Source of the DNA: [Mycobacterium] nativiensis
Lineage (GTDB): Bacteria; Actinomycetota; Actinomycetes; Mycobacteriales; Mycobacteriaceae
Direction of reading: 5' to 3'
Length of the DNA: 64,000 nt
Assembly (NCBI RefSeq): GCF_020172685.1
Contig: NZ_CP083986.1
Span: 4,606,158-4,670,157, forward strand
Below are positions 6,943 to 8,626 of the stretch, one piece after another. The position numbers and the translations under genes are program-made. The notes beneath the pieces were generated by a model. That model saw nothing but the letters and a program-made list of their open reading frames with translations, was not told the origin of the DNA and did no database searches. Numbering within the stretch: position 1 is the stretch's first letter; each line of letters starts with the position of its first letter.

Positions 6943-7040
6943 CATATGCGTCGCCGACTGCTGCACGGCAGACCGGCGCGGCGAACTCCCGCTCGCGATC
7001 CCCCACCAATTGATGTGGGCGGCGCTCCGTCCCTCTTTGT

Positions 7041-7055
7041 TGAAAACGATTGTCA
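7041..7055. promoter_or_regulatory. Zur-like (Fur family) operator upstream of the PPE gene
   Basis: TGAAAACGATTGTCA is a 7-1-7 imperfect palindrome in an AT-rich island within otherwise GC-rich DNA. It resembles the TGAAAATnATTTTCA-type sites of mycobacterial Zur. It lies just upstream of a TAGGGT -10 candidate (7063-7068), so it would cover the -35 region. FurA or another Fur-family protein is a possible alternative reader. The zinc reading is supported by the His-rich protein encoded downstream. Confidence 0.7.
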
Positions 7056-7062
7056 TTATCTA

Positions 7063-7068
7063 TAGGGT
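7063..7068 (+). promoter_or_regulatory. Candidate -10 element of the PPE gene
   Basis: TAGGGT fits the mycobacterial TANNNT -10 pattern and lies immediately 3' of the Zur-like box. It would give a leader of about 60 nt to the GTG start at 7136. The call is from position only. Confidence 0.4.
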
Positions 7069-7135
7069 CTGTCGGGAGCACACACCGCAAGCCGGCCAGG
7101 GGTTGCACCGTGTACCGATCTGGGAGGGCTGTCCT

Positions 7136-8626
7136 GTGACCGCACCGGTGTGGATGGCTTCGCCTCCGGAGGTGCATTCGACGGCACTGAGCAGTGGACC
7201 GGGACCCGGTCCACTGCTGTCGGCCGCCGGCGCATGGTCGTCGCTCAGCCTGGAGTACACCGCGATCGCCGAGGCGTTGCGCGCGTTGCTGGCAGCCGTC
7301 CAGGCGGTGTGGCAGGGTCCCAGCGCAGAGCGGTACCTCACCGCGCACGGCCCGTACCTGGGCTGGTTGTCGACGGCAAGCGTGGACAGTGCGGCGCATG
7401 CGGCACGGCACGAGACAGTGGCCACGGCCTACGCCAGTGCTCTGGCGACCATGCCGACGTTGCCCGAGCTGGCGGCCAACCACGCGATCCACGGCGTACT
7501 GGTGGCGACAAATTTCTTTGGAATCAACACCATCCCGATCGCGCTGAACGAGGCTGACTACGTCCGGATGTGGATCCAGGCGGCCACCACGATGGCCACC
7601 TACGAGGCGATCTCGGGCGCGGCGTTGGCGGCGGCTCCCCAACCCGCCGTGGCACCACCGGTCGTGCTCCAAGACGGAGGCCACGACGACCACGACCACG
7701 ACCACGACCACGACCACGACCACGACCACGACCACGACGGAATACATGGCGATGTAGACCTCTTCGACTCGGAGTTTTGGAAGGACCTCTTCGGCGAACT
7801 GGGCGAGTACGCCGAGATCCTGCTGACCGATCTGCTCACGGATCCGGCGGCGCTACTGACCGATCTCCCGTTCATACTGGCCGATCTGACCTTCCATGCC
7901 AGCCAGATAGCCTCGGCGCTGAGCCAATTCGCTCCGGCGCTGCTGCAGCCGGCTCTGGGCTTGGCGATCGGGAATCTGGGTTGGGCCGCCGGTTTGGCCG
8001 GTTTGGCCGGACTTCAGCCGGCCCCGGTCGAAGCGGCCGACCCGGAACCGGTCGCCCAGCTGCCCGCCATAGCGCCGGCCGCTGGCACGTCGTCCACCCC
8101 TCCGGCTGCTCCCGCCTCCGCGACCGCCACGGTGCCCTCGGCTGCGTCGGTGCCGACAACCAGCGCAGCGCCGGCGTCGGCACCGCCCCCGGTTCCGCCG
8201 CCTGCGGCAGGCTCGGGGTTCTTCCCGCCCTACGTGATCGGACCTGCCGGCACAACCGGCCACGTCAGTGCCATAGCCCGCAGCCGGGCCGTCAAGAAAG
8301 CATCGAATCCGGAGGCGGCCGCCGAGGCTGCCGCCGCGGTTACGGCCGTACGGGATCGGGCCCGGGTCCGGCGACGCCGAGGTGCTCGCGGGCACGCGGA
8401 CGAATTCATCCAGGTGCACCCCAACAGCACCTCGGACCCCGACACCGAATCCGACGCTCCGATTCGGCCATCGGGCAGCAGTGCCGGCGCAGGGGGATTC
8501 GCTGGAGCACAAGCCAAGCCGAGGATGCCCGCAACGGGTCTGACCACATTGGCCGGCGACCGTTTCGCCGGCGGACCGACGGTTCCGCTGCTACCCGAGA
8601 GCTGGGGCGACCGGACCGCCGACTGA
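7136..8626 (+). CDS. Histidine-rich PPE-PPW family protein
   Basis: PPE protein of 496 aa, probably exported or surface-associated through a type VII (ESX) system. The Pro-Pro-Glu motif is at residues 10-12 and the WxG turn (WQG) at 59-61, within the helical PPE domain. After it comes a tract HDD(HD)8 at about residues 183-201, encoded by a CACGAC hexamer repeat and followed by another His, a likely divalent-metal ligand. The middle is Pro/Ala-rich. The C-terminus has the PPE-PPW signatures, a GFAGA motif near 454 and PLLPESW at 484-490. The GTG start has GGGAGGG upstream. It occupies the place of PPE63 in M. tuberculosis but lacks that protein's PE-PPE hydrolase domain. No PE partner is adjacent. 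Zinc acquisition is inferred, not shown. Confidence 0.88.
7682..7738 (+). repeat. CACGAC hexanucleotide tandem repeat in the PPE gene
   Basis: After CACGACGAC come eight perfect CACGAC units in frame, encoding His-Asp pairs. Such a perfect short repeat can gain or lose units by slippage without shifting the frame, so the length of the metal-binding tract may vary between strains. Confidence 0.9.

Follow-up and report, generated by a model that had tools for sequence, protein, structure and literature searches.

The best explanation we can offer for the PPE-PPW gene at 7136-8626 (+ strand) of the window, by which we mean the whole 64,000-nucleotide stretch of DNA analysed, is that it encodes a Zur-repressed, ESX-3-type surface zinc scavenger, a reading that we consider fairly probable. 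The sequence shows an operator, a promoter geometry, other genes of the same predicted regulon, one Fur-family protein, a tract kept among homologues and an ESX-3-type PPE domain, and from them we infer repression itself, export, zinc binding and import.

The product, which we call HD-PPE, has 496 amino acids and belongs to the PPE-PPW subfamily: PF00823 matches it with 199.7 bits against a cut-off of 26 (E 4.3e-59) and PF18878 with 49.3 bits against 27 (E 5.1e-13). The PPE domain is encoded at 7151-7636 and the PPE-PPW C-terminal region (PF18878, residues 446-490) at 8471-8605, both on the + strand. As the sequence-only reading had stated, the protein of this PPE gene carries an HDD(HD)8 linker tract, at residues 183-201 (7682-7738, + strand). 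The GTG at 7136 is the likely start of the gene, because it is aligned with the starts of its relatives and has GGGAGGG, a possible ribosome-binding site, just upstream (7122-7128, + strand). A profile match to a Cas3 helicase was taken as spurious. A plasmid origin was also rejected: 29 plasmid records matched, none of them with a query coverage of at least 80%.

The Zur box and its counterparts in the genome

The palindrome TGAAAACGATTGTCA at 7041-7055, first taken for a Zur-like operator of the Fur family from the letters alone, held up as the core of a predicted 24-nt Zur box at 7035-7058 (+ strand). This box scores 37.0 with our Zur matrix and contains, at 7038-7058, an exact match to a published consensus. 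The matrix was derived from the 19 MAP boxes printed in PMC4298942, which are FIMO predictions ahead of zinc-responsive genes and which themselves score 29.3-44.9. The box is the sole strong matrix site in the window, the next non-overlapping site scoring 7.0, and the best score in 640 kb of first-order random sequence was 14.6. The bare 15-mer palindrome, when up to 3 mismatches are allowed, would be expected by chance fairly often, shuffled sequence giving a mean of 0.50. The consensus TRWYGRNAAYSRTNNNCRWYW, used for M. abscessus Zur in PMC8951752, matches once in the window, both strands being searched, and in none of 100 shuffles.

The box overlaps the -35 hexamer and the spacer of a predicted promoter (7040-7068, + strand), which is composed of TTGAAA at 7040-7045, a 17-nt spacer and TAGGGT at 7063-7068. 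The pattern TTGAAA-N17/18-TANNNT is kept in all 12 loci of the sterol slot described below, many of whose promoters are near-identical; a sigma-70 consensus scan of the window did not call the promoter. This promoter would place the transcription start near 7075. Zur bound at 7035-7058 would occlude the promoter. The sequence supports Zur control of the HD-PPE gene strongly, and we regard such control as almost certain.

Scanning the genome with the mycobacterial Zur matrix, a check suggested in the sequence-only reading, returned boxes at zinc-starvation genes including ESX-3, MRF and L33/S18. The consensus TRWYGRNAAYSRTNNNCRWYW occurs at eight places in the whole genome, and its reversed control at none. 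One match, at 276343, precedes an eccA-type gene in the ESX-3 locus; two (1040875 and 1040929) lie between the gene for an MRF-type GTPase, which matches NF047431 over its cut-off, and genes for L33/S18 proteins without cysteines; one precedes a second PPE-PPW gene, which has no His tract (2796674), and one the HD-PPE gene of the window (4613195). These five are typical mycobacterial zinc-starvation targets (compare PMC4298942 and PMC8951752). The sites at 381924 and 4972398 are likely chance matches, and the remaining site, at 339440, with a Zur box at 339443 before a second eccA-like gene, was dropped because it falls in a contaminated stretch. Two weaker boxes were left out of the list of targets: one at 1899428 (score 21.6, by smtB-zur) and one within a coding frame at 2688675 (score 21.9).

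The contaminated stretch (L134, G000:C1:336500-343500) contains a 19-nt transposon-end adapter sequence five times without mismatch, and parts of the stretch are 76-81% identical to the ESX-3 locus of the same genome, so that it looks like contaminant fragments joined by adapters. Among 188 fetched loci the adapter is present only in L134 and in L114, which overlaps it. No copy occurs in the window with up to 2 mismatches.

The His/Asp tract and its family

To compare box and tract across the family, 110 loci were grouped into 106 clusters at 97% identity, and a box was counted if it scored at least 20 and lay within 500 bp, a cut-off that was set after the scores were known (the maximum in random sequence being the 14.6 given above). 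A Zur-like box was found near the gene in 22 of the 23 His-rich clusters versus 13 of the 83 clusters without a tract. Of the 22 boxes, 14 score within the limits set by the source boxes and the other eight are weaker, at 22.4-28.7. In three genomes (G069, G022 and G016) the HD-PPE box does not match the published consensus, and G016 is without any match to it.

The 23rd His-rich cluster (L007) closes a run of genes, box-PE-PPE-Esx-Esx-HD-PPE (L146), which would form one operon. In that locus (G071, 5991-10114) the Zur-like box heads the run near a transketolase-like gene, as judged by eye, and both L149 and the second boxed PPE-PPW gene of the window's own genome (L138) lie near a similar gene. 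Zur-controlled PPEs may have had their earlier place in this neighbourhood.

When the tract was masked and a quick tree built, one clade (SH-aLRT 95) took in 21 of the 23 His-rich rows, with L014 and L042 apart. This tree needs only three changes of the His-rich trait, and an independent-pairs test gives no significance. The Fisher p of 9e-13 for the association of box and tract is overstated because of shared descent, and the association is mostly a matter of common descent. The clade with the His/Asp linker takes in Mycolicibacter, Mycobacteroides (L009, L011, L012 and P0052, the last from M. chelonae CCUG 47445) and fortuitum-group species. A contig labelled Opitutia bacterium (L065) also encodes a PPE protein of mycobacterial type and is probably mis-binned.

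The boxes before 13 of the 83 tract-less clusters mean that zinc binding does not follow from control by Zur. HD-PPE might thus be Zur-controlled and serve in zinc starvation without binding the metal, as another ESX-3-type PPE engaged in envelope or siderophore traffic, with the tract no more than a tolerated linker grown by slippage. The other boxed PPE-PPW protein of the genome, which has no tract, is consistent with such a role, as is the tract of the window, a pure hexanucleotide array of the kind that slippage would make, whose 6-nt unit repeats perfectly through 53 nt (7686-7738). However, among the best 120 of 5276 homologues, 86 retain a His tract in this linker (residues 173-196), and in several lineages it consists of mixed D, E and G in mixed codons with short perfect runs (for example 11-12 nt in L008 and L010), a pattern that slippage alone does not explain. 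We consider a role without zinc binding unlikely.

His/Asp repeats are not specific for zinc, and the tract could instead bind another metal (Ni, Co or Cu) or act as a zinc buffer or protective sink and not in uptake. A Zur-type operator, on the other hand, would turn the gene on when zinc is scarce, a condition in which the cell has no use for a sink for excess metal, and a reading of this kind is improbable. For a surface scavenger of zinc the linker would be suitable, as a flexible and exposed chain of histidines and acids, and we find it somewhat probable that HD-PPE has a role in zinc acquisition through its tract.

Other regulators and the sterol slot

A profile search of the genome with PF01475 found one Fur-family protein, whose gene lies directly behind an ArsR/SmtB-type gene, the smtB-zur arrangement. 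The NCBIfam Zur model gives this protein 45.7 against a cut-off of 167, that is, a score under the cut-off, and we name it Zur because of its gene order and the regulon. The same profile matches a single protein in G069, as in the window's own genome (G000), and three in G092. With no second Fur-family protein found, the window's lineage seems to be without a FurA that could read the site, and a response to iron through FurA, the outcome that had been set against Zur control in the sequence-only reading, is made unlikely by this one protein encoded behind an SmtB-type gene. An operator for FurA or for iron control is a scarcely credible reading of the palindrome: it differs from the 19-nt E. 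coli Fur box at 3 of 19 positions, but the only Fur-family protein found has the gene order just described, the best match to an IdeR site upstream of HD-PPE has 10 of 19 mismatches, which is no better than elsewhere, and the same motif stands ahead of MRF and cysteine-free ribosomal genes. IdeR control was ruled out as there is no site.

The gene lies in a sterol cluster, between an upstream gene at 6006-6866 (+ strand), which we take to be of the hsd4B type, and a convergent downstream gene at 8639-9796 (- strand), presumably of the ltp2 type and seen behind the PPE in 10 of the 12 loci of this slot. We take this slot to be the PPE63 position. A profile search up to an E of 1 found in HD-PPE no PE-PPE hydrolase domain, which we take to be PF08237 and to be carried by PPE63 (Rv3539), and orthology with PPE63 was rejected; HD-PPE stands in the PPE63 slot, yet is probably a different gene. 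We surveyed 60 genomes of the genus for hsd4B, of which 55 matched, and fetched 30 hsd4B loci. A PPE lies behind hsd4B in three of the 30, the window's own locus and those of two near relatives (one of the other 27 offered just 306 nt for inspection), so that the sterol position is lineage-specific. The His-rich loci divide evenly, 12 of 24 lying directly after hsd4B (10 of these with ltp2 seen behind) and 12 elsewhere. The earlier placement of the gene at the PPE63 position of the cholesterol cluster is right as to the slot, but the position is a peculiarity of one lineage.

Palindromes of the KstR type, seven in the window (2678-50776) against 0.10 expected, mark the sterol regulon. The motif TNNAACNNGTTNNA, which we take to be the KstR site, is not found between 4323 and 15904, a range that includes the HD-PPE promoter, and KstR control of HD-PPE was rejected, the nearest sites being outside that range. 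A terminator-like hairpin of 13 bp stands between the upstream gene and the Zur box (6910-6939, + strand; fold z -7.64). Of 10 measurable relatives, L005 alone shows a strong counterpart and L006 a moderate fold, while the remaining eight have gaps of 36-44 nt. It had been proposed that this terminator insulates the gene from KstR; the independence from KstR stands, given the absence of sites, but the hairpin is not conserved. At the other end, the stops of HD-PPE and of the convergent gene are 12 nt apart (8626-8639) and only a modest hairpin is found there (z -1.5 and -1.2). When zinc is low, transcripts that pass this point could extend antisense into the sterol genes.

ESX-3, zinc and related systems

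When compared with solved structures, the PPE domain of HD-PPE is closest to PPE4, with 220.6 bits; PPE15 gives 80.9 and PPE41 72.3. We take the PPE4 structure to be that of a PE5-PPE4-EspG3 complex and PPE4 to belong to ESX-3. Related PPEs follow a PE gene in gene runs that start with a Zur box. In the window's own genome EspG adjoins the ESX-3 genes, and ESX-3 has its own predicted Zur box. Taken together, the PPE4-type domain, the PE/PPE runs with a Zur box and the boxed ESX-3 point to export through ESX-3 at low zinc, and ESX-3 export of HD-PPE appears likely. PPE4 thus resembles HD-PPE in its domain and in that ESX-3 is under Zur; it differs in having no His tract in the solved stretch.

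We propose that, when zinc is plentiful, Zn-loaded Zur would sit on 7035-7058, over the -35 hexamer and the spacer, and block RNA polymerase. When zinc is low, Zur would leave and the PPE-PPW protein would be made together with ESX-3. HD-PPE would probably be paired with an ESX-3-type PE protein and be carried by EspG3 on its way to the mycomembrane, where the exposed His/Asp linker would capture Zn2+ and help to bring zinc in. Eight genomes were searched for importers. ZnuA was not found in the window's own genome and three near relatives and was found in four genomes of other HD-PPE lineages; ZIP was found in one of the eight and is absent from the own genome and the three near relatives. 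In this lineage the ZnuA and ZIP searches identified no inner-membrane zinc importer that would complete the route. A zinc-capturing surface PPE would fit a lineage where neither was found.

Several known systems share part of this picture. ZrgA of Vibrio has a role in zinc uptake and, like HD-PPE, a His/Asp-rich stretch; the tract alone matches, however, and membership was rejected with scores below both curated cut-offs (19.9 bits against 27.4 and 18.9 against 185). The pairs PE15/PPE20, PE20/PPE31 and PPE36/PPE62 differ from HD-PPE in serving other nutrients, and we know of no His/Asp linker in them. They are like the HD-PPE proposal in that they are PPEs tied to the uptake of calcium, magnesium and heme; PMC12607722 cites links of PPE proteins to these three nutrients and to phosphate.

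Closer in regulation is MAB_0809c of M. abscessus, a predicted Zur target (PMC6734328) that PMC8951752 lists as of unknown function and whose transcript, in the same paper, drops by 5.77 and 4.66 log2 when a zinc-carrying compound is given. It is, like HD-PPE, a PPE with a Zur box, and its transcript falls with zinc; unlike in HD-PPE, no His tract is mentioned in the available text of these two sources. MAB_0809c is probably a member of the HD-PPE clade, to judge from the Mycobacteroides relatives that have an HD-PPE and a weaker box. MAP3737 and MAP3765 of M. avium paratuberculosis are also PPE genes with Zur boxes and are induced by TPEN; compared by their description in the available text of PMC4298942, they differ from HD-PPE in lying in a zinc island and in that no tract is mentioned. 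The word PPE is absent from the main text of the M. smegmatis Zur paper as available (PMC7174638). No His-rich PPE tied to zinc was among the literature matches listed, which is weak evidence of absence as subscription papers were largely outside the scope. The combination of a metal-binding PPE and a zinc operator of its own had been thought undescribed. Zur-controlled PPEs are in print, as these three genes show; within the literature searched, only the clade and its His tract seem not to have been described before.

We suggest, as a tentative generalization, that HD-PPEs could be a mycobacterial class of ESX-3-exported, Zur-controlled surface zinc receptors with a slippage-tunable His/Asp linker, capturing zinc at the mycomembrane. 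ESX-3 is needed for the adaptation of M. tuberculosis to low zinc (PMC3796483). HD-PPE is a specific candidate for a zinc-handling ESX-3 substrate, and none is named in the available text of PMC3796483 and the other papers cited. If the proposal is true, the zinc phenotype of ESX-3 would gain a concrete effector and zinc would join the nutrients tied to PPE proteins. In the window's lineage, where searches found neither ZnuA nor ZIP, zinc uptake would begin with HD-PPEs, and HD-PPE could help to explain how that lineage copes with zinc limitation.
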